Shown here one piece after another: positions 51,789 to 64,000 of a stretch of DNA of 64,000 bases (its first letter is position 1; every line of letters starts with the position of its first letter). This stretch comes from Klenkia marina (GTDB taxonomy: Bacteria; Actinomycetota; Actinomycetes; Mycobacteriales; Geodermatophilaceae). The stretch covers positions 1 through 64,000 of the forward strand of contig NZ_FMUH01000003.1 in the NCBI RefSeq assembly GCF_900101025.1, written 5' to 3'. The position numbers were made by a program, and so were the translations under genes. Under the pieces are notes generated by a model. The model was not told the DNA's origin. It worked only from the letters and a program-made list of their open reading frames with translations, and searched no databases.

Positions 51789-53276
51789 ATGCGTCCTGCC
51801 CCCGTGACCGCCGTCCTCCTGGCCGCGCTGCTCGCGCTGTCGGCCTGCTCGGGGTCCGACGGAGCCGACGCCTCCGGGGGCGGCGCGGATCCCGGCCAGC
51901 CGGTCACCACGGTGCCCGCGGCCACCACGCTGGTGGCCGACACCGACGCGGTGGCCGCGGCGCTGTCCACCAGCCGGGCCCTCTTCACGTCGTCCCCGGT
52001 CGCGGTCGTGGCCGCCGCCGACCAGCCGCCGTCCGGGGACGCCGTCGACGCGGCCGAGCAGCTCGGCGTCCCGCTGCTGCTGGTGGGGGAGGACCCGGCC
52101 CCCGTCGTCGACGAGCTGGACCGGTTGGGCGTGGAGCAGGTCCTCCTGGCCGACGAGGCCGAGACCGCCGAGGCCGACCTCGGCGACCGCGTCGTCACCG
52201 GCACCGGCGACGACCTGCCCGCGGTCGAGCCGGCCGAGCCGCTGTCCGACGTCGTCGTCCTGGACAGCGGGGCACCGGCCACCGCGGCGGGCGCGGTCAC
52301 CGCACGGGCGGCGGGCGCCGTCGTCGTCGACACGGCCGGGCAGACCGACCCGCGGGCCTCGGCCGAGGTCGTCGACGCCCTCGCCGGCACCCAGCCGGCG
52401 GCCGTCGTGGCGCTGGGCGCCGACTTCACCGGGGTGCAGGGCCTGGACTGGAAGACCGCGACCGCCGCCTCGGGCACCCAGCTGCCCGGTGGTGGCCAGC
52501 TGCTGTTCCCCGAGCACTTCCTCGTCGCCATGTACGGGTCGCCGGAGGGTCCGGCGCTGGGCGTGCTGGGGGAGCAAGGGCTCGACGAGTCGATCGGCCG
52601 GGCCGACGAGTTCGCTGCGCCGTACGCCGCGCTGCTGCCCGACCGCACCGTCGTCCCGACGTTCGAGGTCATCGTGACGGTGGCCTCGGCGTCGGCCGGA
52701 CCCGACGGCAACTACTCCTCCGAGGCCGACCCGGCCGCCCTGCGGCCCTACGTGGAGGCCGCGGGGGCCGCGGGCCTGTACGTCGTGCTGGACCTGCAGC
52801 CCGGCCGCACCGACTTCCTCACCCAGGCGCAGCAGTACCAGTCGCTGCTGGAGCTGCCCTACGTCGGGTTGGCGCTGGACCCGGAGTGGCGGCTGCAGCC
52901 CGACGAGGTGCACCTGCAGCAGATCGGGTCGGTGGGCGTCGACGAGGTGAACCAGGTGGTCACCTGGCTGGCCGACCTCACCCGGGCCAACGCGCTGCCC
53001 CAGAAGCTGCTGGTGCTGCACCAGTTCCGGTCGAGCATGATCACCGATCGGGAACGGCTGGACACCTCCCGCGACGAGTTGGCCGTGATGGTGCACGTCG
53101 ACGGTCAGGGCAGCCAGCCGGCCAAGCAGGGCACGTGGAACGCCCTTCACCAAGGGGCACCTTCTCCGCTGTACTGGGGGTGGAAGAACTTCATCGACGA
53201 GGACGAGCCGATGCTCACCCCGGCCGAGACCGTGGCCCAGGCGCAGCCGCTGCCCGAGCTCGTCACCTACCAGTGA
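51789..53276 (+). CDS. Large secreted lipoprotein with CWB2-like N-terminal domain
   Basis: A 495-residue lipoprotein. Signal peptide and lipobox LALSAC give lipid-modified C20, followed by a Gly/Ser linker. The N-terminal domain (about 45-240) alternates short strands and helices (AVVAAADQPPSGDAVDAAEQLGVPLLLVGE, VEQVLLADEAETAEADL), resembling cell-wall-binding repeat 2 modules. The C-terminal half (about 270-490) looks like a glycosidase-type TIM barrel (GLYVVLDLQPGRTDFLTQ, YVGLALDPEWR, MITDRERLDT), with no catalytic pair that I can name. A TAGGGT -10-like box lies at 51733. It is followed by the sigma factor 8 bp downstream. Confidence 0.8.
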   Translation: MRPAPVTAVLLAALLALSACSGSDGADASGGGADPGQPVTTVPAATTLVADTDAVAAALSTSRALFTSSPVAVVAAADQPPSGDAVDAAEQLGVPLLLVGEDPAPVVDELDRLGVEQVLLADEAETAEADLGDRVVTGTGDDLPAVEPAEPLSDVVVLDSGAPATAAGAVTARAAGAVVVDTAGQTDPRASAEVVDALAGTQPAAVVALGADFTGVQGLDWKTATAASGTQLPGGGQLLFPEHFLVAMYGSPEGPALGVLGEQGLDESIGRADEFAAPYAALLPDRTVVPTFEVIVTVASASAGPDGNYSSEADPAALRPYVEAAGAAGLYVVLDLQPGRTDFLTQAQQYQSLLELPYVGLALDPEWRLQPDEVHLQQIGSVGVDEVNQVVTWLADLTRANALPQKLLVLHQFRSSMITDRERLDTSRDELAVMVHVDGQGSQPAKQGTWNALHQGAPSPLYWGWKNFIDEDEPMLTPAETVAQAQPLPELVTYQ

Positions 53277-53283
53277 GGACGCC

Positions 53284-54270
53284 ATGACCGAGGTGCTGGA
53301 GACCCGCGGGGACCTCGAGGCGCGCATCGCCACGCACCGCCGCGAGCTGACCGGTTACTGCTACCGCATGCTCGGGTCCTCCTTCGACGCCGAGGACGCG
53401 GTGCAGGAGACGATGGTCCGGGCCTGGCGGTCGCTGGACAAGCTGCAGGGCCCGGGGGCACTGCGCTCGTGGCTGTACCGCATCGCCACCAACGTCTGCC
53501 TGGACTCCCTGGACGGGCGCAAGCGCCGAGCGCTTCCGGTGGACATGTCCGACGAGCCCTACGCCCCGGTCGAGGCGTCCCTGGCGCAGACGCTGCCCGA
53601 CGGCGCATGGGTGGAGCCGGCGCTCACCTCGTCGGTGCTCGGTGGCGACCCGGCCGACCTGGTGGCCCAGCGCGACTCGGTGCGGCTGGCCTTCGTGGCG
53701 GCGCTCCAGGTGCTGCCGCCCCGCCAGCGCGCGGTGCTCGTGCTGCGCGAGGTGCTGCGCTGGCGGGCAGAGGAGGTCGCCGGGCTGCTGGACACCACGG
53801 TCGCGGCGGTCAACAGCGCCCTGCAGCGGGCCCGCGCCACGCTGGCCGGGTACGACGGCAAGGCCCGGCCGGGGGAGGTGGACGCCGACCAGGCGCAGCT
53901 GCTGGCCGCCTACGTCGACGCCTTCCAGCGCTACGACATGGCCGCGTTCGTGAAGCTGCTGCACGACGACGCCGTGCAGGACATGCCGCCGTTCGCCATG
54001 TGGCTGCGCTCGGCCCCCGACGTCGTCGCCTGGATGGAGGGGCCGGGGTCGGGGTGCCGCGGCTCGGCGCTGCTGCCGGTCGACCTCAACGGTTCGACGG
54101 CGTTCGCGCAGTGGAAGCCCGACGGGGCCGGCGGGTGGACGCGCTTCGCCTTCCAGGCCCTCGAGGTGCACGACGGGCGGATCAGCCGGATCACGTCGTT
54201 CCTGGACACCCGGTTGTTCGACCTGTTCGGTCTGCCGGCCAGCCCGCCGCCGGAGGCCCTGCCCCGGTGA
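53284..54270 (+). CDS. ECF sigma factor with SnoaL-like C-terminal domain (SigJ/SigG type)
   Basis: A 328-residue sigma factor. Region 2 (RRELTGYCYRMLGSSFDAEDAVQETMVRAWRSLDKL, then LRSWLYRIATNVCLDSL) and region 4 (LQVLPPRQRAVLVLREVLRWRAEEVAGLLDTTVAAVNSALQRAR) are clear. The last 120 residues form an NTF2/SnoaL-like domain (AAYVDAFQRYDMAAFVKLLHDDAV, VHDGRISRITSFL) that senses or represses in place of an anti-sigma factor. It lies 8 bp after the lipoprotein gene, so the lipoprotein may be part of the same regulon. The tRNA-Gly fragment and element boundary follow its end by 26 bp. Confidence 0.92.
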   Translation: MTEVLETRGDLEARIATHRRELTGYCYRMLGSSFDAEDAVQETMVRAWRSLDKLQGPGALRSWLYRIATNVCLDSLDGRKRRALPVDMSDEPYAPVEASLAQTLPDGAWVEPALTSSVLGGDPADLVAQRDSVRLAFVAALQVLPPRQRAVLVLREVLRWRAEEVAGLLDTTVAAVNSALQRARATLAGYDGKARPGEVDADQAQLLAAYVDAFQRYDMAAFVKLLHDDAVQDMPPFAMWLRSAPDVVAWMEGPGSGCRGSALLPVDLNGSTAFAQWKPDGAGGWTRFAFQALEVHDGRISRITSFLDTRLFDLFGLPASPPPEALPR

Positions 54271-54296
54271 GGGCCGGTGTGGCGACCGGTGCGTTG

Positions 54297-54340
54297 AGCG
54301 GGTGACCGGGATCGAACCGGCATGGCCAGCTTGGAAGGCT
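54297..54340 (-). other. Attachment site: 3' fragment of tRNA-Gly(TCC)
   Basis: Forty-four bases match the 3' part of a tRNA-Gly with anticodon TCC: anticodon loop CTTCCAA, 3' half of the anticodon stem, T-loop TTCGATC and acceptor CACCCGC-T. The D-arm and 5' acceptor are missing, and the similarity ends inside the anticodon stem. CAA replaces CCA after the discriminator. This is the displaced att half left by integration into a tRNA-Gly; the rebuilt intact tRNA should lie at the other end of the element, right of the window. Confidence 0.8.
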
Positions 54341-54437
54341 CACCCCGGATCGTGACGTTCCGGACGTTGGTGCAGGTCAGAGGGGCGTGGCTGCCGTCTC
54401 GGACGTGTCGGCGGCCGTACGTGTCACTCGCGTGTCA

Positions 54438-55661
54438 CTAGCTGGCGATGATCTTGGACGGTCGGAGCTGCTGCACGGGGGCGAGACGAGCTCGTTCGGA
54501 CACCAGCTCGGCCAGCTCTGCCTGTCGGGCGGGGCTGCTCTGCGTGTACCTGATGGCCATCGCGTCCGACCTGTGCCCGAGCAAGCGCTTGATGTCAGCC
54601 ACCGAGCCACCCACCACGGCCATCGTGGTCGCTGCGTGGTGCCGGAAGTCGTGACCGTGGAGCCCGGTGTCGCCGAGGCCGGCGGTCACCAGGGCTGCTC
54701 GCCACGGCCCGTCGGCGGCCGTGAAGTTGTTCGACCGCAGGGGCCCACCTCGGGGGCCGACGAACATCAAGCCCTCGGGGTCGGAGGCGGCGTAGGTCGC
54801 GAGGTGGTGCGCCAGGTCGTCGGCGATGTGCGACGGGACGGCGACGACGCGATGGGTGCCGTTCTTCGTCGTCTCCCGGATGACCCGGCCCTGGCCCTTG
54901 ACCTTGCCGGCCGTGCGGCGGACGTGGATGACGCCGCGCATCAGGTCGACGTCCCGGCGGCGTAGGGCGGCCAGCTCGCCGAACCGGAGCCCGCAGAACC
55001 CCGCGACCAAGACCATGGCCCTCCACCGTTCGGCGATGGCGTCGGCGATGGCCTGGACGTGCTCCAGCTCGACGTCCGGGCGGGGGTTGACCGGCTCGGA
55101 TCCGGCGCCCTTGATCGTGCAGGGGTTGGCCCGGATCTCGCCGTCCTCGACGGCCGTCGTGAGGATGGACTTGAGCAGCTTGTAGCACTTGGGGGCCCCG
55201 GTCGGTCCCGCGCCGGTGACCAGGTCGGTCAGCATGCCGTGCCATGCCCGCACCCGGGCAGGGGTGATCTTGCCCAGCTCGACGCGGCCGAAGGTGGGCA
55301 GAATCCACCGGTCGAGCTGTCCTCGGTACAGGTCACGCGTGGTCGGTGCCAACGGCCTGCCCTGCACCTTCCGGGCGGCCAGCCACGCGTCCGCGTAGTC
55401 GACGAACCGGGTGAGCCCGGCACCGGGAGTCGGGTGGTTGCTGTCCTCGATCGCCACCTGCGCGCGGCGCATGTGTGCCTCGGCCGTCTTGCGGGCTCGG
55501 GCGGTCCGTTGGGCGTCGGTGCCGGCACCCTCGCGCGGGAACGTCATGGTCACCGTCTTGCCGTCGACCCGGTAGCGCAGTCGCACACTGCCGCTGGGCA
55601 GCTCGGTGACAGAGCCGGAGCCCTGGCGGCGCCGGGTCTCGGTGGGGGCCTTGCTGGTCAT
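54438..55661 (-). CDS. int: Tyrosine site-specific integrase
   Basis: A 407-residue phage/ICE integrase. The N-terminal arm-binding domain (about 10-60, SGSVRLRYRVDGKTVTMTFP) and core-binding domain (about 85-190) precede the catalytic domain: Arg in GFCGLRFGELAALRRRD, His-x-x-Arg in LHGHDFRHHAATTM, His in LLGHRSD, and nucleophile Tyr in AIRYTQSS. All catalytic residues are present. It lies 97 bp from the tRNA-Gly att fragment and should integrate the element there. ATG start (MTSKAPTETRR). Confidence 0.96.
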   Translation of the reverse strand: MTSKAPTETRRRQGSGSVTELPSGSVRLRYRVDGKTVTMTFPREGAGTDAQRTARARKTAEAHMRRAQVAIEDSNHPTPGAGLTRFVDYADAWLAARKVQGRPLAPTTRDLYRGQLDRWILPTFGRVELGKITPARVRAWHGMLTDLVTGAGPTGAPKCYKLLKSILTTAVEDGEIRANPCTIKGAGSEPVNPRPDVELEHVQAIADAIAERWRAMVLVAGFCGLRFGELAALRRRDVDLMRGVIHVRRTAGKVKGQGRVIRETTKNGTHRVVAVPSHIADDLAHHLATYAASDPEGLMFVGPRGGPLRSNNFTAADGPWRAALVTAGLGDTGLHGHDFRHHAATTMAVVGGSVADIKRLLGHRSDAMAIRYTQSSPARQAELAELVSERARLAPVQQLRPSKIIAS

Positions 55662-55805
55662 GGGACGTCCTCACGGGATCGGCGGAAGCTGGCCATCCCC
55701 TCTACCGACTCGGGTAGGTCAGAGACAACCTGCGTGTGGCCGGGGGACTGTCCAACTGCGTGCTGACCAGCGCAAGGGCTTGACCGGCCGTGTCAACCAG
55801 TCGGG

Positions 55806-55880
55806 CTTACGTGGCGATGAGGGCCCGAGATGACGTGGTTGGGCCGGGTCGACGTGACACGAGCGCTACGTGGCGGCTCA
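55806..55880 (+). repeat. Pair of TACGTGGC repeats upstream of the integrase
   Basis: TACGTGGC occurs at 55808 and 55867, 59 bases apart. The same word occurs in the same orientation at 63673 and 63732, also 59 apart, near the other end of the visible element. GCTACGTGGCGGCT is shared in full by the 55867 and 63732 copies. They could be integrase or excisionase arm sites. Confidence 0.4.
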
Positions 55881-56723
55881 GACTCTGCCTGGGGTGTCCT
55901 TGGCCGATCCCGTTTCGTGGCTGCTGCCGAGGCAGGCGTCGATCGTCCGACCCACAGCGTTGTAGATGTCGCCCAGCTGGAAGTACGGAACGGTGCGGCC
56001 GGCGTGGTCGGTGAAGTGCACGACCAGGGGCCAGTTGATGTACACGACCCACTCGCTGGGCATCGCGCTCACGAACCGGTAGCGGGTCTGCTCGGCCCCG
56101 AACACGAGCGGCTCGAACGGCGGGCGGGTCCAGATGATCTCGACCTCGGCCGTCGGCGGCTCGACCCGGAGTACCTCCTGGTCGACCGGCGCCGAGGTCA
56201 CGGCGGCGGTGTGCAACATCGCGTGCTTGTCGGCGTTGTTGACCCGACTTAAGACGGCCAGCAGGTTGTCGGCGGGGACCCCGCCGGGGACGTCCTGGAA
56301 GGGCTGGAGCGACTCGATCGTGTCGTAGGCGGCCTGGCTCACGTGAGCCAGCGGACCGCGTTCCTTCGGGTAGCGCTTGCCGACGCTGTCGGCCCACTTG
56401 TCGGGGTCGTCGTAAATGGGAAAGGCGTTGTCTCGGATCGGCTGGCGGCCGTTCTGGAGGACCAGGACCGTGATCAGGTTGTCTAGCGCCGACCGAGCGC
56501 AGTGCGCGAAGTCCCCAAGCATGAGGCCCATCTCGGGATAGGGCTCCTCGGCCGGTTGATACAGCGCGGAGAAAGTGCCGTCGCAGTTGTTTCGCGGCGG
56601 GGACATGCTGCCGGCCTCCAGCACCCTGCTGATCTCCGCGAGCAGGACATCGAGGACATCCCGGGCGTGAGACAGCTTCAACCAGACGCCGGCGAGAACA
56701 CTGTCCGGGGTGATGGGGTCCAC
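55878..56723 (-). CDS. Hypothetical element-borne protein
   Basis: A 281-residue protein of unknown function. No membrane segments or known catalytic motif. The central part reads MLGDFAHCARSALDNLITVL and, later, LSRVNNADKHAMLHTAAV, phrases that I have seen in uncharacterised proteins of mobile elements. The C-terminal 90 residues are beta-rich. Codon use is less strictly GC3-biased than in the chromosomal genes (for example several ATT/TTT/AAA codons nearby). It diverges from the TcmP gene across a 158-bp spacer, so the two may share control. Confidence 0.7.
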   Translation of the reverse strand: MDPITPDSVLAGVWLKLSHARDVLDVLLAEISRVLEAGSMSPPRNNCDGTFSALYQPAEEPYPEMGLMLGDFAHCARSALDNLITVLVLQNGRQPIRDNAFPIYDDPDKWADSVGKRYPKERGPLAHVSQAAYDTIESLQPFQDVPGGVPADNLLAVLSRVNNADKHAMLHTAAVTSAPVDQEVLRVEPPTAEVEIIWTRPPFEPLVFGAEQTRYRFVSAMPSEWVVYINWPLVVHFTDHAGRTVPYFQLGDIYNAVGRTIDACLGSSHETGSAKDTPGRV

Positions 56724-56881
56724 CGGTCCATCGTGGCCCGGGGCACCGACAGTGCGAGTGGCGGTAGCCCCGGCGCGCCGCCGGGCTTCTGTTCGGGTGC
56801 TCAGGCCCCAGATGCTGTCCGGGCCGACCTCGATCGAGTTGTCGCCCAGGTCACAGGTGAGAGCGGACGCATCGTTCTCGC

Positions 56882-58030
56882 ATGAGACGATGCTTCATCA
56901 TCGACGAGCGGAGCACGGGGGTCTTCGTGGCGAAGGACAAGTTGCCGCCCATCTGGGAGCAGGAGCCGCACACGGCGGCCAAGCACGCCATCCTCAGGGG
57001 GTACCTGGGTGCGTGGTTCGCCATCATGGGCCGGTACAACGGCCGGGTGCTGATGCTGGACGGGTTCGCCGGTCCGAACATCTACGAAGGCGGCCAGCTG
57101 GGGTCCCCGAGCTTGACCCTGGAGACGCTCACCCAGCACAAGTACGACGTGGCGAAGTACGGCTGCGAGTTCCTTCTGTTCTTCAACGAGGCCGATCCGG
57201 AGCGATACCCGCACCTGGAGCGGTCGATCGCTGAGATCGAGGCCGCCGGCCTGCCCGAGCACGTCAAGATTGCGCTGTTCAACCAGAACTTCCAGCACCT
57301 GGCTACTGACCTCCTGGAGACGCTGGAGGCATCCGACCGCCGCCTTGCGCCCACGTTCGCCTTCCTCGACCCCTTCGGGTACCAGGACGTCCCGATGAAC
57401 CTCATTCGGCGACTGCTGGCGTTCGACAAGTGCGAGTTGTTGATCTACTTCGACGCGAACAGTTCCATCAGATTCGCGAACAAGCCGGGCAAGGTCGAGC
57501 CCCACTTCGATGCCTGGTTCGGAACCGACGAGTACCTACAGGCACCGCCGGCAGGCACCCCGGGGCGCAAGGAGTGGCTGAGGGATCTGTACGCCCGGCA
57601 GCTCCGTGAGGTGTGCGGTTTCGACTACGTCCGATGGTTCGAGATGCGCGACAAGAAGAACAAGACCATCAACTACCTGTTCTTCTGCACTCGCCACGTG
57701 ACGGGCCTGTCCCGCATGAAGGACGTGATGTGGAAAGTCGCACCCAACGGGGACTTCGTCTTCTCGGACTACCTGAACGACAAGTTGGTCTTGTTCACCC
57801 CCGACCCGGACATCGCCCCGCTCCGACAGGCGATTCTCGATCACTTCGGGGGGCTTAGAGGGGTCACCATCGAGCAGGTCATGGAGTTCGTGGTGGTTGA
57901 GACGCCGTTCATCGAGGCGCACGTCAAGAAGCCCACGTTGAAGCCAATGCAGCTGGACGGGCTGTTCACGTCCCCAAACCAGGGAAGGTTCGGCACCTAC
58001 CCAAGCGGCACCATCCTGGACTTCAGCTAG
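56882..58030 (+). CDS. tcmP: Three-Cys-motif partner protein TcmP
   Basis: A 382-residue protein of the TcmP family, named for its genomic pairing with the three-Cys-motif (DUF5131) protein. VLMLDGFAGP (60-65) followed by NIYEGGQLGSP resembles an S-adenosylmethionine-binding motif I, and FLDPFGY (161-167) resembles the D-P-x-[FY] catalytic motif of amino-methyltransferases; methyltransferase activity is an inference. The C-terminal part has a winged-helix look (GVTIEQVMEFVVVETPFIEAHVKKPTLKPM). The start could instead be the GTG at 56927 (VAKDKLPPIW). It overlaps the convergent DUF5131 gene by 8 bp. Biological role unknown. Confidence 0.85.
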   Translation: MRRCFIIDERSTGVFVAKDKLPPIWEQEPHTAAKHAILRGYLGAWFAIMGRYNGRVLMLDGFAGPNIYEGGQLGSPSLTLETLTQHKYDVAKYGCEFLLFFNEADPERYPHLERSIAEIEAAGLPEHVKIALFNQNFQHLATDLLETLEASDRRLAPTFAFLDPFGYQDVPMNLIRRLLAFDKCELLIYFDANSSIRFANKPGKVEPHFDAWFGTDEYLQAPPAGTPGRKEWLRDLYARQLREVCGFDYVRWFEMRDKKNKTINYLFFCTRHVTGLSRMKDVMWKVAPNGDFVFSDYLNDKLVLFTPDPDIAPLRQAILDHFGGLRGVTIEQVMEFVVVETPFIEAHVKKPTLKPMQLDGLFTSPNQGRFGTYPSGTILDFS

Positions 58031-58769
58031 CCGCGAGGGCTGGCATCTCATCCCAGAGGCGGCCGTCCAGCTCGCGGCCGTTTGCCTTCGGGGTGCGGCC
58101 ACCCCACTGCTTGAAGAAGAAGGGGACGTTGGCGTCGACGCATTGGTCGCGGATCTCCGTCACCCAGTTGGCCTGGACGGGCCGCGCGCCGTGGCCGGAC
58201 TCGCCACCGACGATGACCCAGCCGATGCCATCCAGCTCCAGGTGTCCGAGCGGTCCGATCAACGGTTCGCAGGACAAAAACCGTACGGCCGCCGGCACCT
58301 TGCGCAGCGCGGCGATCCGGTCGCGCACCTTGGCCTCCTCGACCGAGACCCCCAGCCACAGGTTCGCAGGCCAATCGAGCTGGTCGGCCAGCTTGAGCAC
58401 CCGGCTAGGACGCTTGGTCAGTACCTGGTAAGTGTGCTGTGGGGTGTCTGCGATGACCTTGAAGACGTCGGCGATGAAGTCGATCGGCACGCGGGCATGG
58501 AACAGATCGCTCATCGAGTTAACGAAAACAGTGCGGGGCGCTCGCCACGTGTAGGGCTGGCGCAGCGCGCGTGGGTGAGTCGTTACACCGAAGCCCGGCC
58601 CGGATGTGACCGGGTTGCCGTCGTTCTGGTACTTTGCTGCACCCATTGCCTTGAGCCGCTTGCTCAGCGTGAGCGCGTAGCAGTTGTCGCAACCCGCCGA
58701 AATGCGGTCGCAGCCCGTCACCGGGTTCCAAGTGACCTCGGTCCACTCGATCTTGCTGCCACTGGCCAC
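58023..58769 (-). CDS. Three-Cys-motif protein, DUF5131 (phage Gp37/Gp68 family)
   Basis: A 248-residue protein. SKIEWTEVTWNPVTGCDRISAGCDNCYA has C20-x6-C27-x2-C30, the three cysteines likely ligating an Fe-S cluster as in radical SAM-related enzymes. Family motifs SMSDLFHARVP, YQVLTKRP, LWLGVSVE and FLSCEPLIGPL and GGESGHGARP follow. The family occurs in phages and mobile elements and its reaction is unknown; resemblance to spore photoproduct lyase-type repair enzymes is a hypothesis. The start is the GTG at 58769, with GGAGG eight bases upstream. A perfect LexA box lies 50-65 bases before the start, so it is probably SOS-induced. Confidence 0.9.
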   Translation of the reverse strand: MASGSKIEWTEVTWNPVTGCDRISAGCDNCYALTLSKRLKAMGAAKYQNDGNPVTSGPGFGVTTHPRALRQPYTWRAPRTVFVNSMSDLFHARVPIDFIADVFKVIADTPQHTYQVLTKRPSRVLKLADQLDWPANLWLGVSVEEAKVRDRIAALRKVPAAVRFLSCEPLIGPLGHLELDGIGWVIVGGESGHGARPVQANWVTEIRDQCVDANVPFFFKQWGGRTPKANGRELDGRLWDEMPALAAS

Positions 58770-58818
58770 CGTGGTTCGCCTCCCAGAAATGGGGTCGGCT
58801 GTCATCCTCATGAACTAT

Positions 58819-58834
58819 TCGAACACGCGTTCGA
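58819..58834. promoter_or_regulatory. LexA (SOS) box
   Basis: TCGAACACGCGTTCGA matches the actinobacterial LexA consensus TCGAAC-N4-GTTCGA exactly. It lies 50-65 bases upstream of the DUF5131 GTG, where it would cover the promoter. It overlaps a 12-bp tandem direct repeat (TTCGAACACGCG at 58818 and 58830). No other full match was noticed in the window. Confidence 0.85.
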
Positions 58835-58939
58835 ACACGCGTCAAGCCGCCCGCTCTCACCCTAGGCCGACGTGCGTCGGTGAGACCTTGCTCGGACGTG
58901 TCACTCTTGCCGACGGGCCTGGTGGGGCTGGTGGTGCGC

Positions 58940-59650
58940 TCAGGCCCTGCGTGCTGCGGCGTAGGCGTCCAGCTCGGCCGTGGTGAGCACCTGCTTGACC
59001 GTGGAGGCGTGCCAGACCGGCCGGCCGGTGCTGGTGAGGATGCCGTCGGCCATCAGACCCTCCCCGATGGCGACCAGACCCCGTCCGGCGGCGCGCTCGG
59101 CGACGATCCGGTCCACGACCACGGCAGGCACCTTGCTCTTGCGCCCGTACCGGGTACCGGTCTGGATCTTGGCTTGCATCGCGTCTGCGGTGCGCTCGGC
59201 GATGACCTCGGCCTCCCACTCGGCCACGTTCGCCATGATGCCGGCGACGAGACGGCCGTTGCTCGTGCTCAAGTCGAGACCGATCTCAGAGACGGCGAGC
59301 GTCCAGCCCTCGCGCTTGGCGTCAGCGGCCAGGCGGGAGAAGTCGGCCACCGACCGGGCGAGCCTGTCGATCTTGGTGACAACGATGCCGTCTGCCTGCC
59401 CGCTGTGGACCAGCTCCAGGGCCCGGGCGAGCGCATCGCGCCCGTCAGTGCTGGTGCCAGAGACTCCACCGTCCACCTCGATGCCGACCAGCTCGACGCC
59501 CCGGGCAGTAGCGAAGGAACGGATCTTGGCCTCCTGGTCGTCCAGCCCCCCACCGCTGGCCACCTGTCGACCGGTAGAGACCCGGCAGTAGCCGACCCAC
59601 CGCTGAGGGCCGGCGGGCTGGGTGCGCCTGGAGCGACGGAGCGTGGTCAC
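58940..59650 (-). CDS. Small serine recombinase (resolvase/invertase family)
   Basis: A 236-residue recombinase. The catalytic Ser is in WVGYCRVSTGRQ, with the supporting Arg/Asp region IVVTKIDRLARSVADF and the E-helix EWEAEVIAERTADAM. A short C-terminal HTH region (ERAAGRGLVAIGEGLMADG) resembles a truncated recombinase/resolvase DNA-binding part, so it is a small resolvase-type enzyme, not a large integrase. GTG start (MTTLRRSRR). An 8-bp inverted repeat with AT-rich centre lies 8 bases upstream of the start and may be its site or operator. Confidence 0.92.
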   Translation of the reverse strand: MTTLRRSRRTQPAGPQRWVGYCRVSTGRQVASGGGLDDQEAKIRSFATARGVELVGIEVDGGVSGTSTDGRDALARALELVHSGQADGIVVTKIDRLARSVADFSRLAADAKREGWTLAVSEIGLDLSTSNGRLVAGIMANVAEWEAEVIAERTADAMQAKIQTGTRYGRKSKVPAVVVDRIVAERAAGRGLVAIGEGLMADGILTSTGRPVWHASTVKQVLTTAELDAYAAARRA

Positions 59651-59657
59651 GGACGCA

Positions 59658-59687
59658 GATTACAGGAAATGTGGAGATTCTGTAATC
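59658..59687. repeat. AT-rich inverted repeat at the serine recombinase start
   Basis: GATTACAG and CTGTAATC flank a 14-base centre. It is one of the few AT-rich patches in the window, lying 8-37 bases upstream of the recombinase start and reaching the stop codon of the 54-residue gene. Candidate crossover site or autoregulatory operator. Confidence 0.55.
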
Positions 59688-59850
59688 AGGTGTTGCCGGC
59701 GAGCCCTTCCAGGGCGACGGCAGCACCTTCCAGCCTGTCGCGCTCGGTCTGGGTCGACGTGATCTCGCCCCGGTCGACAGCGTCGAGCACCCGGCGCAAG
59801 ATCGCAGCGGCCTCAGTCGGTTCGGCGGCGTCGTCCTCGTGGTCGGCCAT
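59686..59850 (-). CDS. Small acidic protein (54 residues)
   Basis: MADHEDDAAEPTEAAAILRR, then a predicted helix VLDAVDRGEITSTQTERDRLEGAAVALEGL. Acidic, no known family. Start chosen at the ATG preceded by GAGGGAAG; a longer frame to 59934 is basic and unlike it. It is the last small gene of the leftward series before the recombinase. Confidence 0.55.
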   Translation of the reverse strand: MADHEDDAAEPTEAAAILRRVLDAVDRGEITSTQTERDRLEGAAVALEGLAGNT

Positions 59851-59902
59851 GCTGACGATCTTCCCTCGGTCGGCTTCGTGGGTCCTGGGGGAGTTGGGTG
59901 CC

Positions 59903-60241
59903 CTACGCGCGCGACGACGGGCCATTGGGCCCACCGAGTGCGGGTCGCAGGGGCAGGGCCTCGGCGGCGCTGACGATCCCCATGCGTGCTCCCGGTCGGC
60001 GGGCGAGCCCTGGGCCGTCGCTGGTCTGCTCCAGGATCAGCCTGCCGAAGTCGCGCCGTTGGGCGGCGGCGCTGAGGGCGACGGCGGCGACTGCGACGTG
60101 GGGGCCATCGACCAGGCTGACAACGTCGCCGGTGCGAACGTAGGTCTCGCCGACGGTGGCGGGCTCGTGGACCAGGTAGTCGCAGGCGACGGCGGGCAAC
60201 GTGCTCGTGGTCGCGTGTGGCTTGCTGGGGAACGCGGTCAC
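59903..60241 (-). CDS. Hypothetical element protein (112 residues)
   Basis: A small protein of unknown function with a beta-rich start (VACDYLVHEPATVGETYVRTGDVVSLVDGPHVAVAAVAL) and an Arg-rich end. The GTG start overlaps the TGA of the upstream gene by 4 bp (GTGA), which supports both genes and implies translational coupling. Confidence 0.65.
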   Translation of the reverse strand: MTAFPSKPHATTSTLPAVACDYLVHEPATVGETYVRTGDVVSLVDGPHVAVAAVALSAAAQRRDFGRLILEQTSDGPGLARRPGARMGIVSAAEALPLRPALGGPNGPSSRA

Positions 60242-60651
60242 GGCGCGATGCCCTCGATGGGCTCGACGTCGATCTGCACGTAGCCGTGGGTGGCGCGCTG
60301 TTCCTCGGGGCGGAGCCAGTGCAACCGCGCGGCCAGCTCTGCGGGCATGGTCAGCGTCTGACCGGCGGGCAGGTAGCCAGAGCCCTGGAAGGGGGCATCC
60401 GTGCGTGCCACCATGCGCACCAACGTGGCCCCCGGGCGGGCTCGCTCGATCTCCACCACCCAGAGCATCCGGCGGCCCCAGCGGGCGCACTGAGCGTCGT
60501 CGGAGAGGTCGGATACCCATGACCGGCCGAAGTCGTCGCGCTGTGTGGCGGCAACCTCGGGCGTGATCTTGTAGAGCCGGTCTTCGCGCAGCACCAGCCC
60601 GACTGCGCTCAGCGCCGTCCCCGGCAGCGGCACCACGTGGATCGTGCTCAT
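60238..60651 (-). CDS. Hypothetical element protein (137 residues)
   Basis: Unknown function. MSTIHVVPLPGTALSAVGLV opens a probably beta-rich domain, with DDFGRSWVSDLSDDAQCARWGRRMLWVVEIERA in the middle and VQIDVEPIEGIAP at the end. The ATG overlaps the stop of the preceding 42-residue gene (ATGA) and its stop overlaps the next start. Confidence 0.65.
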   Translation of the reverse strand: MSTIHVVPLPGTALSAVGLVLREDRLYKITPEVAATQRDDFGRSWVSDLSDDAQCARWGRRMLWVVEIERARPGATLVRMVARTDAPFQGSGYLPAGQTLTMPAELAARLHWLRPEEQRATHGYVQIDVEPIEGIAP

Positions 60652-60776
60652 CGACCGGTGCCCTGCGTGGTGATCTCCCGGAGCCTGGACGTCCGGCTGA
60701 TCGTCAGGTGGGAGTAGTGCCCGGCCCGCATCTGGTCGACCATCCGGGTCAGCGCCTCGGGGTCGTACTCGGTCAT
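60648..60776 (-). CDS. Small hypothetical protein (42 residues)
   Basis: MTEYDPEALTRMVDQMRAGH, then YSHLTISRTSRLREITTQGTGR. Its stop overlaps the next gene's ATG by 4 bp. The last six residues (TQGTGR) are identical to the end of the gene upstream of it, showing that the gene junctions were duplicated. The sequence pattern (MVDQMRAG, S.LTISRTSRLREI) parallels MAHQLRSG and ELISVSRLEEIRDR in that neighbour, so the two are short paralogues. Confidence 0.6.
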   Translation of the reverse strand: MTEYDPEALTRMVDQMRAGHYSHLTISRTSRLREITTQGTGR

Positions 60777-60811
60777 CGTGGGCCCTTTCGGTGCCTGGTC
60801 GGGGTCGGGGC

Positions 60812-61084
60812 TCACCGGCCGGTGCCCTGCGTATCGCCGGTGGTGGTGAACCACTCCGCGTTGTCGGCGACGACGCGGTCGATCTCGGCCTGCTCGGCCC
60901 GGCTGGGGGTTGCGGGCTGACGGCGGGCGGTGTCGCTGCCCAGCGCAGCGGCGAGCCGGACGTTGCGGTCGCGGATCTCCTCCAACCGGGAGACCGAGAT
61001 CAACTCGGGGTCGTAGCGGCGGCTGCCGGACCTGAGCTGGTGGGCCATCGCGGCGAGCGCTGCGGCGCGGTTGGTGTCGGACAT
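60812..61084 (-). CDS. Small hypothetical helical protein (90 residues)
   Basis: MSDTNRAAALAAMAHQLRSG begins a mostly helical protein (ELISVSRLEEIRDRNVRLAAALG, AEQAEIDRVVADNAEWF) that ends TQGTGR, like the smaller paralogue downstream. No family recognised. It lies downstream of a 369-bp spacer with two hairpins and may start its own transcript. Confidence 0.65.
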   Translation of the reverse strand: MSDTNRAAALAAMAHQLRSGSRRYDPELISVSRLEEIRDRNVRLAAALGSDTARRQPATPSRAEQAEIDRVVADNAEWFTTTGDTQGTGR

Positions 61085-61252
61085 CGTGTCGTCCTCGGGG
61101 TCGTGGGGGGTCTTCGGTGGCGTCCGGCGCTCAGCGCGGTGACGGCGGGGCCGAGGGTGCCCACCTCGGAGACCGGCCGTCGTCTGGGCTGGAGAACGGC
61201 TGGCCTGTGGTCCTCGTCGTCACCGCGCTCAACGTCGGTGTCGTGCTGGGGG

Positions 61253-61311
61253 AGGGCTCGTGCTGGACGCCCAACGGGGCGGAGAGGACCCACTCGTCCA
61301 GCACGAGCCCT
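61253..61311. repeat. 17-bp perfect inverted repeat with 25-base loop
   Basis: AGGGCTCGTGCTGGACG and its exact reverse complement flank 25 bases. Arms are much longer than a typical operator half-site. It may be a terminator, an operator, or a replication or transfer site of the element. Confidence 0.7.
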
Positions 61312-61406
61312 GTGCACCGCTCACCCGTCGCCGAACCAATGAGCGGGCCTGTACGGCGACGTCGGGGTGAAGAGGCCACGCCCTGGAGCCGCCGTGCAGG
61401 TAGTGC

Positions 61407-61451
61407 CCTCGCGGCGCCCGGTCGTGTGACGGAGCGCGTGGCGCCGCGAGG
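61407..61451 (-). terminator. Hairpin after the 59-residue gene
   Basis: CCTCGCGGCGCC and its exact reverse complement flank 21 bases, starting two bases beyond the stop at 61454. Probable terminator of the long leftward operon that begins at 63998. Confidence 0.6.
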
Positions 61452-61453
61452 AG

Positions 61454-61633
61454 TCAGCGGTACTCGCGCAGCGTGGTCGAGTGCATCTGGAGCGGTTCGC
61501 GAGCCGTCTTGCCGGTGGCCATGTAGATCGCGTGGGCGACGTAGCGCTCGACTTCGGCGGCAGCCCGGCGGGGGTTGCCGGAGCCGAGCGCCTCTGCGAG
61601 CCGCTGTGCGGGGCTGGTGTTCGGTGCGGTCAT
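61454..61633 (-). CDS. Small hypothetical protein (59 residues)
   Basis: A short gene with a strong AGGAGG seven bases before its ATG, which also overlaps the stop of the upstream gene (ATGA). MTAPNTSPAQRLAEALGSGN then PRRAAAEVERYVAHAIYMATGKTARE form helices. No family recognised; last gene before the hairpin. Confidence 0.7.
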   Translation of the reverse strand: MTAPNTSPAQRLAEALGSGNPRRAAAEVERYVAHAIYMATGKTAREPLQMHSTTLREYR

Positions 61634-62223
61634 CGTGGTGCCTCCTGGTTGGGGTCGGGGACGAGCTGGAGGGCCGGGCGTTGGGCGCGCTCGGTCAAGG
61701 CGTCAGCCAAGTCGGTGAGGTCGTGGCCGGTGGTCTGCGCGCGCAGGACGCCGGCCACGACGAGCGCGGCATGGGGGTCGGTGTCGGCGACCGTCACGAG
61801 CGCGCTGACGAGTGCGTCAAGCTCGCGCACCGTCGTGCGGGTGCCGTCGTCGGCGACACCGAGACGGTCGGCGAGGTAGGCCAGCGCTTCGCGTTCTTCG
61901 CGGGAGGCCATGAGAGCTAGGCGCCCGTCGCCGGCCGTCATCGCGTGGTCTCGGACGTCGGCGGCGTCGCTGACCTGCGTGAGCACCCGGTCAACCAGGT
62001 CGGCGAGCCGCACGTCCTCGCGCCGACGGGCGATCCCGACGGTGACCTCGGCCAGCGCGGCGGCCAGGTGCTCATCACGGTGTCGGGCCAGGCTGCGGGG
62101 GCTCAGGCCGTAGCGCCGGGCCAACGTCTCCAGCGGTACCCGGCGAGATCCACCGGCGCCGATGATGGCGGCGTCGATGTCCTCGTGGTCGTCATGGGCG
62201 CAGATCGTGCAGGGGCGAGCCAT
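61630..62223 (-). CDS. HTH-type DNA-binding element protein (197 residues)
   Basis: The N-terminus has a C-x2-C-x-H arrangement (MARPCTICAHDDHEDIDAAI) followed by a helix-turn-helix: SRRVPLETLARRYGLSPRSLARHRDEHL. The rest is helical (RREDVRLADLVDRVLTQ, ALAYLADRLGV). Such short Cys-plus-HTH proteins are common in actinobacterial phages and integrative elements, with unclear function (regulator or small terminase-like). Starts with the TGATG overlap to the upstream gene and ends with ATGA to the next. Confidence 0.75.
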   Translation of the reverse strand: MARPCTICAHDDHEDIDAAIIGAGGSRRVPLETLARRYGLSPRSLARHRDEHLAAALAEVTVGIARRREDVRLADLVDRVLTQVSDAADVRDHAMTAGDGRLALMASREEREALAYLADRLGVADDGTRTTVRELDALVSALVTVADTDPHAALVVAGVLRAQTTGHDLTDLADALTERAQRPALQLVPDPNQEAPR

Positions 62224-62600
62224 CAGCGCATCGCCCCCGGCAGCCCGTCGCGTAGCAGCGCGGCGAACGTCGACAGGGACATGACCACGTAGTGCTGAGC
62301 GTCGTCGGCCATGCGGCGCTTCTGCACCACGACGGGGTACACGCGGCCCAGGCGCTCGGCGACGGCTCCTGCGTCGTCGGCAGCGTCGGCCAGGTCCAGA
62401 CGACGGACAGAGCGCGGTCGGATGGCCCACGACGTCGTCATCGTGGCGTTGGCGGGATCGGGCTCGATCGTGCCGGTGGTGGCGTCGAAGGTGGCCCGGG
62501 GAAGGCCGGCGTCACGCAGCGCGAGTGCCACGGCGTGGGCGTGCGCCCGGTGCGCGGCGATGGTGGCCAGCTCGCCGGTGGGCGCCGTGGTCGTCGTCAT
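62223..62600 (-). CDS. Hypothetical element protein (125 residues)
   Basis: Unknown function. MTTTTAPTGELATIAAHRAH is followed by a mixed alpha/beta stretch with WAIRPRSVRRLDLADAADDAGAVAERLGRVYPVVVQKRRMADDAQHYVVMSLSTFAALL. The start overlaps the HNH gene's stop by 4 bp and its own stop shares one base with the next start (TGATG). Confidence 0.65.
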   Translation of the reverse strand: MTTTTAPTGELATIAAHRAHAHAVALALRDAGLPRATFDATTGTIEPDPANATMTTSWAIRPRSVRRLDLADAADDAGAVAERLGRVYPVVVQKRRMADDAQHYVVMSLSTFAALLRDGLPGAMR

Positions 62601-63547
62601 CGCGAGGTCTCCCCGCCGCTGTCGTTGGTCACGACATCTCCTTCGGCTTCCAGTGGCGCTGACCCCGGTACGACGACCAGGTCGGCGAAGCTCTTGCCGG
62701 TGGTGAGTCGTCCTGGCGGCGGTGCCGGCGTCGTGGTGGGGGCTCGGTAGTCGGCCAGCTCTGCGAGCGTGAGCCGCTGCGTCGTCGGTGCTTCTTCGTG
62801 GTCGGGGGATGAGGTCTGAGCGTCGGAAGCTGCGCTAGGAACAGCACCCGACCCGAGCCCGACCCGACCCGGCGTCACCCCTGGTGACCCTTGATCTGTA
62901 CTTAGTTCAGATCCAGGTACGTACCTGGGTTCTGCGCGACTCGGGTTCTGAGCTGCGCTTTGCCTCCTGCGCGGCTGTCCACGGCGGGGCTCTGGCAAGA
63001 GGGTCATGCCAGCCTGATCGGGGGTGCGCCTGGCCTTCTTGCTGTTGCACGACCTGCACGAGGTCACGCAGTTGTCGACGCTGCTGGGGCCGGTGGGGTC
63101 GACGTGGTCGTAGGTCAGCCCGGTCGGGCCTCGGCGATCCGTGTGGTTGCCCTTGATCCCGCAGTACCTGCACCGGTCGCCATCGCGCTTCTTGATCGCG
63201 GCCACCAGGCCCGGGATGCGCTTCATCTGCTGGCGCTTGTTGTTGGCCTCACGGTCGGCGAGGACGTCCGCTCTCAGGGGCTGGTCGGGTGCCCACGGGG
63301 TGAACTGCCAGCCGGTCTCGTCGTTCTCGGCGTCGGTCGTCTCGATCCAGAGGCCGGCGGTCACCAGTCTGGCCGCCATCTCCGCTGTCGCGCCGAGCGA
63401 CGCGGGCACCCACTCGGGAACGAAGCCGTCGGTGAGCTGGTCGGATGCCCAAGCGCCGGCCAGGGCCCACAGGCCCATCGCGGCGACACCGGCGCGACGG
63501 GCGCGCCGGTCGCCGTGGAGCTTGTCGTCCACCTTGAACCAGACCAT
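62597..63547 (-). CDS. HNH endonuclease-containing element protein
   Basis: A 316-residue protein. The N-terminal domain (MVWFKVDDKLHGDRRARRAG, ALAGAWASDQLTDGFVPEWV) resembles phage replication-initiation or replisome-organiser proteins. A central HNH module follows (RCRYCGIKGN, TGLTYDHVDPTG, NCVTSCRSCNSKKARR) with two C-x2-C zinc pairs. The C-terminal 140 residues are polar and Pro/Ser-rich. It may nick or open the element's origin; this is inference. I chose the ATG at 63547 (GGGAG at a proper distance) over the GTG at 63550. Start and stop both overlap neighbours. Confidence 0.8.
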   Translation of the reverse strand: MVWFKVDDKLHGDRRARRAGVAAMGLWALAGAWASDQLTDGFVPEWVPASLGATAEMAARLVTAGLWIETTDAENDETGWQFTPWAPDQPLRADVLADREANNKRQQMKRIPGLVAAIKKRDGDRCRYCGIKGNHTDRRGPTGLTYDHVDPTGPSSVDNCVTSCRSCNSKKARRTPDQAGMTLLPEPRRGQPRRRQSAAQNPSRAEPRYVPGSELSTDQGSPGVTPGRVGLGSGAVPSAASDAQTSSPDHEEAPTTQRLTLAELADYRAPTTTPAPPPGRLTTGKSFADLVVVPGSAPLEAEGDVVTNDSGGETSR

Positions 63548-63783
63548 CACGTGCTCCCGAGGTGCTGGACGGGCCGACGCGCTCCCGGCTGCCGGACGTC
63601 GGCTGCCTCTTCCTCTTCGGCCTCCAGCGCTGCTGACCCCGGAACGAGACGGGATGACACCCTCTGCGGGCCTACGTGGCCGGCGACGTGCGCCCCGGGG
63701 CGATTGGTCTCGCAGGTGGCCGTCAGTCGGCTACGTGGCGGCTGGTGAGCTGCGTGGGGCTGGCGGTGGGGTAGTCCGTTCAC
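63547..63783 (-). CDS. Small hypothetical protein (78 residues)
   Basis: Its GTG overlaps the TGA of the HTH gene (GTGA) and its TGA shares a base with the HNH gene's ATG, so coupling supports it as a gene despite a low-complexity His/Arg/Pro-rich start. VPGSAALEAEEEE near its end echoes VPGSAPLEAEGD near the end of the HNH protein, another duplicated gene end in this operon. Two TACGTGGC words lie inside it. Confidence 0.5.
   Translation of the reverse strand: MNGLPHRQPHAAHQPPRSRLTATCETNRPGAHVAGHVGPQRVSSRLVPGSAALEAEEEEAADVRQPGARRPVQHLGST
63670..63745 (+). repeat. Second pair of TACGTGGC repeats
   Basis: Copies at 63673 and 63732 are 59 bases apart, the same spacing and orientation as the pair at 55808 and 55867 upstream of the integrase. 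Confidence 0.4.
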
Positions 63784-63998
63784 TGGTCCGTCGAACGCTC
63801 GGCCTCGTGGCGCTCGACGTCAGCCAGACGCACGCGGATGGCCCGACGACGGGGGTCGGGGTGCGGGCCGACGCGCACCACAGGGATCTCACCGGTGGCG
63901 AGTGTGGCTCGGACCGTGTTCTCGGCGAGCATCCAGCGCTCGGCGAGGTCGGCGACGGTCAGGAACGTGGTCGGGGCAGACTTCTTCGCTCGTGGCAT
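63780..63998 (-). CDS. Excisionase/MerR-like HTH DNA-binding protein
   Basis: A 72-residue single-domain protein: FLTVADLAERWMLAENTVRATLATGEIPVVRVGPHPDPRRRAIRVRLADVERHEAERSTDQ. The winged-helix pattern (TVADLAERW..NTVR..L..GEIP..RVG....IR..DVE) is that of the excisionase/helix-turn-helix 17 family, which directs integrase towards excision or regulates element genes. It is the first visible gene of the leftward operon, and its start lies three bases from the window edge. Confidence 0.85.
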   Translation of the reverse strand: MPRAKKSAPTTFLTVADLAERWMLAENTVRATLATGEIPVVRVGPHPDPRRRAIRVRLADVERHEAERSTDQ

Positions 63999-64000
63999 GA

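Follow-up and report, generated by a model that had tools for sequence, protein, structure and literature searches.

TcmP and DUF5131 as a possible mobile exclusion module: a predicted radical-SAM enzyme with an exchangeable partner and, in a subset, LexA-type control

The TcmP-DUF5131 gene pair, carried on an integrative element of Klenkia marina, may be a mobile exclusion (anti-phage) module, in which a conserved radical S-adenosylmethionine (SAM) enzyme works with a partner that picks the target and can be exchanged, with gating by the SOS response in some cases; we hold this reading with about even confidence. The window, by which we mean the whole stretch of DNA analysed, comprises 64,000 nucleotides of contig NZ_FMUH01000003.1 (positions 1 to 64,000; assembly GCF_900101025.1; our contig C5), while loci and genomes used for comparison carry L and G numbers. 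Our computations reveal a fold resemblance, the pairing of the two genes, the recurrence of LexA boxes, the divergence and exchange of TcmP, and the occupation of a prophage defence slot; LexA binding, catalysis, the target and exclusion itself are what we infer.

The TcmP open reading frame (ORF) extends over 56882-58030 on the forward strand (TIGR04474, 173.5 bits, cut-off 53; PADLOC entry PDC-M30A) and that of DUF5131, a three-Cys-motif protein of the Gp37/Gp68 family, over 58023-58811 on the reverse strand (PF07505, 342.5 bits, cut-off 28.9; PDC-M30B/M41B). These coordinates bear out the tail-to-tail arrangement of the original prediction, with an overlap of 8 base pairs (bp) between the gene ends at 58023-58030. 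Both proteins probably start further in. For DUF5131 the internal GTG at 58769 is the likely start because it is preceded by GGGAGG (read by eye), and for TcmP the GTG at 56927 because residues 1-9 and 13-17 of the ORF are modelled with a predicted local distance difference test (pLDDT) score below 50.

Both family models are thus matched by adjacent genes, and TcmP is accompanied by DUF5131 elsewhere too. In a survey of 394 genomes of the class, with layouts counted from match positions, TcmP was present in 19 and DUF5131 in 30, the latter accompanying TcmP in all 19; the two matches lie at most 0.5 kb apart in 17 of these genomes and about 2.9 kb apart in G487, and in G179 TcmP is split. The convergent layout proved common (9/19) and not universal, since the other ten genomes carry the genes on the same strand, eight with DUF5131 first and two with TcmP first. 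A collection of 101 loci, which includes the window and some duplicates, comprises 40 convergent pairs, 27 with DUF5131 first, 22 with TcmP first and 12 without TcmP. Furthermore, tblastn matches to DUF5131 occur in 159 phage and 405 plasmid records, 15 of the phage records being 60-80% identical to the window protein. On the pSymA plasmid of Sinorhizobium meliloti (L197), the TcmP profile matches two frames on opposite strands.

The pair itself is already catalogued in PADLOC-DB as PDC-M30/M41, with TcmP matching PDC-M30A (4.6e-54) and DUF5131 matching PDC-M41B (4e-112) and PDC-M30B (5.8e-109); we take PDC to mean phage defence candidate. According to passages of PMC10855318, 68.8% of the 32 Pseudomonas aeruginosa strains with PDC-M30 are phage-resistant, and an expression-change table in PMC12445080 contains SMa2243, a TcmP gene next to SMa2245, the gene of the Hna defence. 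The LexA operator, the exchange of partners and the phage slot are unreported in the passages of the literature retrieved under the family names. Indeed, DUF5131 is widespread yet nearly absent from the open literature searched.

Within the pair, DUF5131 is the constant member and TcmP the variable one. Among the Gordonia phages PantheRoc, Easley, Angelique and Bosnia, the DUF5131 proteins are 92-97% identical and the TcmPs 23-28% identical in five of the six comparisons. That TcmP is not bound to a particular repressor is seen in Angelique and Bosnia, whose TcmPs are 88% identical and whose repressors share only 39% identity. The DNA of Easley and Bosnia is 88.7% identical through the repressor gene, then gives no blastn hit (E 1e-5) over TcmP, and resumes at 87.0% identity some 20 bp within the DUF5131 gene, counted from its stop. 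The same disparity is found in bacteria: loci L117 and L120 have DUF5131 proteins of 93% and TcmPs of 24% identity, and over 780 actinobacterial pairs, compared in multiple alignments, the median identity is 70% for DUF5131 and 21% for TcmP. When the DNA of six bacterial pairs was compared, in four the match ended no more than 28 bp from the DUF5131 stop; in L129/L146 it ended 10 bp before one DUF5131 stop and 73 bp before the other, and in L108/L114 it ran through TcmP. Excepting L108/L114, the match also started no more than 107 bp before the DUF5131 start. In these five pairs just DUF5131 itself is shared, and replacement between flanks is therefore not shown.

Temperate phages reveal where the pair is placed. 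We compared 13 Gordonia phage regions, chosen by similarity to the pair or its flank, and eight of them (PantheRoc, Easley, Angelique, Bosnia, ThankyouJordi, Pytheas, Fairfaxidum and BaxterFox) have the pair flanked by the immunity repressor and, on the integrase side, by a metalloprotease. In seven of the eight, TcmP directly adjoins the repressor gene or overlaps it; in Pytheas one gene lies between. TcmP was identified by hidden Markov model in PantheRoc and Easley and by tblastn in Easley, ThankyouJordi, Pytheas, Angelique and Bosnia; in Fairfaxidum it is the gene annotated 'methyltransferase', and in BaxterFox, where DUF5131 was found by tblastn, gene 42 was counted without a TcmP match of its own. 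In the other five phages, the slot is taken by genes 44/43 (CarolAnn, whose protease flank is 85.3% identical to that of Easley), by RexA/RexB-family proteins (Sidious), by a peptidase (Vasanti) and by hypothetical genes (DumpsterDude and Ruthy). CarolAnn 43 and 44 are described in passages of PMC6426606 as experimentally shown, RexAB-like defence genes, their products being a membrane protein with four predicted transmembrane segments and one that weakly matches DUF4747. On that description we rejected gp43 and gp44 as homologues of TcmP and DUF5131; just the slot is in common. A metalloprotease gene (IrrE-like in Pytheas) follows DUF5131 in all eight pair-bearing phages (L199, L203-L205 and L211-L214), and is itself followed by a small gene often annotated as helix-turn-helix; antirepressor control of the ImmA/IrrE type is possible in these phages.

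In the Klenkia element, a perfect LexA-type operator, TCGAAC-N4-GTTCGA (TCGAACACGCGTTCGA, 58819-58834), stands upstream of DUF5131, approximately 50-65 bp before its likely start, and is the only perfect example within the window. Read by eye, it is flanked by a -35-like TTGACG and a -10-like TCGAAT spaced by 17 bp. Thus, of the original claim that a LexA box covers the DUF5131 promoter, the palindrome stands, while the promoter remains a predicted one because a promoter scan of the upstream region returned no site above its thresholds. The genome as a whole contains eight perfect sites at seven places, as against one for the reversed control pattern. Among them are boxes at the genes for DNA polymerase IV (384.5 bits), LexA (255.9 bits) and ImuA' (158.7 bits), all recognized by curated models; further boxes accompany an unclassified ORF, a HEPN_SAV_6107 protein and a weak HipA_2 match. 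The first lexA start comes 225 bp after the lexA box. For the polymerase, ImuA' and HEPN genes, the longest ORF opens within or just ahead of the box, so that the true start must lie further in. The unclassified ORF, of 413 amino acids, is preceded by two perfect boxes in overlapping tandem (C7:424291-424318; L007/L008). In form, then, the operator at DUF5131 agrees with those of lexA and further SOS genes in its own genome; by eye it occupies a promoter position, and putative control of DUF5131 by the host LexA is supported.

Boxes of this form are also enriched upstream of DUF5131 in relatives, as the original prediction had anticipated. Our first set comprised 52 loci, read as actinobacterial from their titles, out of 80 DUF5131 loci, for which the 200 bp upstream of the DUF5131 match were compared with 2596 other windows of the same 52 loci. 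A perfect box was found at 2/52 (0/2596 in controls; 0.00 expected), a box with at most one mismatch at 8/52 (4/2596; 0.08 expected) and one with at most two at 17/52 (54/2596; 1.08 expected). The exact core CGAAC-N4-GTTCG precedes DUF5131 at 6/52, compared with 2/2596 windows; of the eight exact cores in these loci, six are situated 26-134 bp before DUF5131. Upstream of TcmP (300 bp, 49 loci) there was no box at one mismatch and a single one at two. Five of the 17 box-bearing loci are Streptomyces with one common box form, which may represent a single inheritance. A second set of 55 loci, from which two rows with a DUF5131 identical to the first set were removed (some genomes occur in both sets), gave boxes within two mismatches at 8/38 paired loci and 14/768 windows, and at one mismatch at 2/38 and 1/768; three of these eight (L021, L076 and L077) are doubtful as LexA boxes. 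Where the fetched flank held no TcmP there were 0/15 boxes, although one such locus, L066, has a TcmP farther off.

Nine plasmid and phage regions were searched over 300 bp upstream of DUF5131 and yielded neither the actinobacterial pattern (at most two mismatches) nor CTGT-N8-ACAG, GTTC-N7-GTTC or GAAC-N7-GAAC. We therefore confine the claim of SOS control to Actinobacteria, excepting one Comamonas plasmid (L198, 3366-4786) on which a LexA-like S24 repressor gene overlaps the DUF5131 start by 4 bp, with TcmP next. The match of this repressor to TIGR00498 (73.6 bits) is under the cut-off of 110.95, and the gene may be one other form of SOS-type switch.

It remains to consider whether the palindrome at DUF5131 could be fortuitous, or serve a repressor encoded by the element rather than host LexA. 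Its membership of a 12-bp tandem duplication, read from the sequence, would suit such an origin, as would a different perfect palindrome, TCGCACATATGTGCGA, found upstream of DUF5131 in other paired loci, L077/L191 (genome G464) and L093/L193 (G516). We rejected TCGCACATATGTGCGA as a LexA box, given a single copy in each of the two genomes, solely at DUF5131; it is possibly the operator of another regulator, or a drifted LexA box. The window palindrome differs in being repeated at lexA, polymerase IV and imuA' of its genome, in recurring at the same position in other loci, and in fitting the LexA motif tCGAAC-N4-GNNCGa obtained by chromatin immunoprecipitation sequencing in Streptomyces venezuelae, as given in passages of PMC9380542. 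We rejected a chance palindrome in view of the eight genomic sites against one reversed-pattern site and of the recurrence in relatives, and we regard this explanation as a whole as very unlikely.

The model of DUF5131, built from a 71-sequence alignment (pLDDT 90.2), is a partial triose-phosphate isomerase (TIM) barrel with a three-cysteine cluster loop, as expected of the radical SAM superfamily, and the three cysteines (CX6CX2C, where the canonical radical SAM motif is CX3CX2C) are invariant in 71/71 sequences. Spore photoproduct lyase accounts for each of the first six Foldseek matches in the PDB (E 1.8e-4 to 2.7e-3, probability 1.00), with template modelling (TM) scores of 0.49-0.51 on the query and root-mean-square deviations (rmsd) of 4.8-8.5. 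The iron-sulphur-type cysteine triad and radical SAM barrel proposed earlier are thus upheld at the level of a model, and DUF5131 is predicted to be a radical-SAM-type enzyme. Membership of the spore photoproduct lyase family itself is not supported, PF20903 being absent from the Pfam matches and the cysteine spacing being CX6CX2C. Its score against TIGR04471, radical SAM mobile pair protein A, is 84.6 bits and far under the cut-off of 355. Fold matches among viral models include GP88 and radical-SAM proteins, and are mostly weak. The phage family GP88 (PF17338) is also matched by 68/71 DUF5131 proteins at E up to 1 (best 1.5e-8), which suggests, at the sequence level, that it is related to DUF5131.

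TcmP, modelled from 65 sequences (pLDDT 88.9), has an RlmJ-like SAM-methyltransferase fold followed by a C-terminal winged-helix-like part. RlmJ was the best Foldseek match (E 7.4e-6), ahead of histamine methyltransferase, KsgA and YhhF, and the sole family below E 0.001 in the profile search (4.6e-6), so the methyltransferase-like character originally noted holds in both fold and profile. The family motifs DGFAGpGRY and GSPL match RlmJ, adding SAM motif I to an RlmJ-type fold. The GMT-wHTH family PF22560 reached 20.3 bits with the window protein (cut-off 27) and E 0.1 or better in 20 of the 65 members. RlmJ has DPPY as its catalytic motif IV. The window TcmP has DPFG instead, and across the family an initial D is followed by P, S, Q, G, T or A, next by a variable residue and mostly by G in last place; in PantheRoc the motif IV is DQQG and the usual motif I is missing.

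Because a conserved enzyme is coupled to a variable, sometimes replaced partner in a slot for known exclusion genes, TcmP may set the target and DUF5131 provide a common chemistry. Temperate phages, plasmids and integrative elements would then carry the pair as a two-enzyme exclusion module. The variable part, TcmP, would be a SAM-dependent, RlmJ-like enzyme bearing a winged-helix-like tail; it would choose a nucleic-acid target and probably methylate it. The constant part, DUF5131, would be a small enzyme of the radical-SAM type, cleaving SAM and working on the target or product of TcmP, with the result that the invader, or else the infected cell, is stopped. In the Klenkia element and some actinobacterial relatives, LexA would repress DUF5131 until the SOS response to infection or DNA damage released its expression. 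It is tempting to speculate further that prophages and mobile elements possess an immunity founded on radical chemistry, in which a conserved radical-SAM enzyme resembling spore photoproduct lyase receives its specificity from an interchangeable nucleic-acid methyltransferase, as restriction enzymes do from their specificity subunits, and in which LexA fires or reverses the module upon damage; this more explicit version is tentative and on balance doubtful.

Several observations weigh against an exclusion module of this kind. Exchange and slot suggest conflict and fall short of proving defence, and passages of the literature found under the family names hold no experiment on the pair and nothing on mechanism. 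Conserved DNA on both sides of a replaced TcmP is seen in the comparison of Easley with Bosnia only. Furthermore, in 13 actinobacterial pairs with DUF5131 identities of at least 80%, TcmP identity ranges from 17 to 91% (median 54%), so some close pairs keep their TcmP and others do not. The radical-SAM assignment is fold-based, with TM scores of about one half and rmsd reaching 8.5; below rank 8 the fold matches are mostly ordinary barrels mixed with radical-SAM proteins. No PDB sequence matched DUF5131 at E 1 (one unrelated sequence did at E 1.5), and hhalign with two spore photoproduct lyases aligned just the cysteine loop, at 1.1% probability. Since motif IV varies, some TcmPs may not methylate, their catalysis being altered or lost. 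Same-strand pairs may be driven by one promoter. Finally, 35/52 actinobacterial loci and 7/7 tested phage copies lack a LexA box within two mismatches, so SOS gating is not general: LexA control as a family-wide trait must be given up, and it is instead a recurrent option.

The presence of LexA boxes at DUF5131 and not at TcmP, together with the position of TcmP beside the repressor in phages, fits a role for DUF5131 in removing a mark as well as one in attack. TcmP would in that case be made constitutively and write an inhibitory mark, which would constitute the exclusion, and SOS-induced, lyase-like DUF5131 would erase it so that the DNA of the element could replicate or leave. In the seven Gordonia phages where TcmP abuts or overlaps the repressor gene (BaxterFox gene 42 by position), lysogens should express TcmP, whereas DUF5131 is read from the opposite strand; moreover, TcmP is never found without DUF5131 (0/19 genomes), and the nearest fold to DUF5131 is that of a repair enzyme. 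Set against this, the same-strand genes of ten of the 19 class genomes (eight with DUF5131 first, two with TcmP first) could be made together, and none of the seven phage copies tested has the LexA box that should time the erasure. We consider mark removal unlikely.

The original prediction had offered repair or phage defence as functions. Defence has gained positional support from the phage slot, whereas all that speaks for repair is the SOS box and a likeness to spore photoproduct lyase. A repair or tolerance pair, with DUF5131 directly undoing a base lesion, TcmP protecting or marking nucleic acid and the whole carried as fitness cargo, would accord with a box held in common with repair genes and with a fold nearest to a DNA repair enzyme; passages of PMC9380542 also place vnz_31145, known here by its radical SAM description alone, under LexA control in S. 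venezuelae. It would not lead one to expect partners swapped to 23-28% identity beside a DUF5131 of 92-97%, nor a location in a prophage exclusion slot, and we judge it somewhat less likely again than mark removal.

The host of the pair is an integrative element of approximately 9.9 kb. Its left attachment site, attL (54296-54340), is a perfect 45-bp repeat of the 3' half of tRNA-Gly(TCC), and attR (contig C5:64240-64284) lies outside the window, as does the tRNA-Gly(TCC) gene itself (C5:64238-64311), found by tRNA search 238 bp past the right end. ARAGORN accordingly detected only tRNA-His and tRNA-Arg, and no tRNA-Gly, on the window, and an Rfam scan of 53500-64000 gave no match. A tyrosine integrase gene (54438-55661, reverse strand; PF00589, 76.1 bits; phrog_1) is at one end and an excisionase-like gene (weak match, 4e-4) at the opposite end. 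Close to both ends is an 18-bp direct repeat, CACTCGCGTGTCACTAGC (window 54425 and C5:64116), whose copies are probably integrase arm sites. All eight other genomes of the genus matched a tRNA-Gly/tRNA-Pro query somewhere, the eighth by only a short match, and seven loci (L216-L222), one per genome, were taken for an empty-site comparison. In four (L218-L221) the left flank, 52800-54340, continues directly into the tRNA at 84-87% identity, as an unoccupied (empty) site should; in the other three (L216, L217 and L222) the match is limited to 45-49 bp. Attachment repeats, integrase and empty sites thus establish a tRNA-integrated element, and the earlier label of 'tRNA-Gly element' is right because 45 bp of the tRNA-Gly are repeated at attL, with the correction that the tRNA gene sits beyond the window. 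DUF5131 was not found in the eight other genomes of the genus, one of which is 73% complete.

The element also encodes, all on the reverse strand, a second recombinase of the serine type with a resolvase domain (58940-59650; PF00239, 118.9 bits), a replication-initiation-like protein with an HNH domain (62597-63550; phrog_2447 and phrog_15463; PF01844) and, divergent from TcmP, a protein of 281 amino acids (55878-56723). The last has no match in Pfam, NCBIfam, PADLOC or PHROGs and no relative besides itself among the ORFs of the 101 loci; it is probably cargo separate from the pair. A scan of neighbours (131 ORFs, a hand-trimmed part of 188) gave, among the 25 families listed, scattered restriction, PD-T4-6, MkoA, mad2/mad6 and integrase genes; no control set was scanned and we therefore claim no enrichment. 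On Nocardioides pNOCA01 (L202, 5001-10744) the pair adjoins McrC and an AAA ATPase gene. ARAGORN reported a tRNA-Pyl at 9345-9440 of L190, an actinobacterial contig, which is probably a false positive.

Taken together, our findings render the pair testable: TcmP is its variable part and DUF5131 its constant one, isolated Gordonia phages supply natural sets of alleles, and LexA is the predicted switch. Should the exclusion reading be true, radical-SAM chemistry would be added to phage exclusion, and there would be a route to asking whether the SOS response arms or releases the exclusion system of a mobile element. Comparison with known systems places the pair among several precedents. PADLOC PDC-M30/M41 is the same two-gene pair, matched by both proteins, and differs in that its entries are without description. 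Radical SAM mobile pair protein A is related in that DUF5131 shares 30% identity with plasmid proteins of Bacteroides bearing that name; the partner of mobile pair protein A is a protein other than TcmP. Spore photoproduct lyase, which according to PMC3742179 reverses a lesion, is the best fold match and shares with DUF5131 a C-x(n)-C-x2-C-Y loop, but has CX3CX2C and 338-340 amino acids in contrast to CX6CX2C and 248. The 23S rRNA methyltransferase RlmJ is closest to TcmP in fold and profile and possesses the same DxxAGxGxY and GSPL motifs, whereas TcmP has a variable motif IV, an extra C-terminal part and a patchy, mobile distribution. Finally, lambda-type Rex and CarolAnn gp43/gp44 resemble the pair in comprising two genes, one beside the repressor, in the slot between repressor and metalloprotease; TcmP and DUF5131 differ from them in resembling SAM enzymes and in having the DUF5131 gene on the opposite strand.

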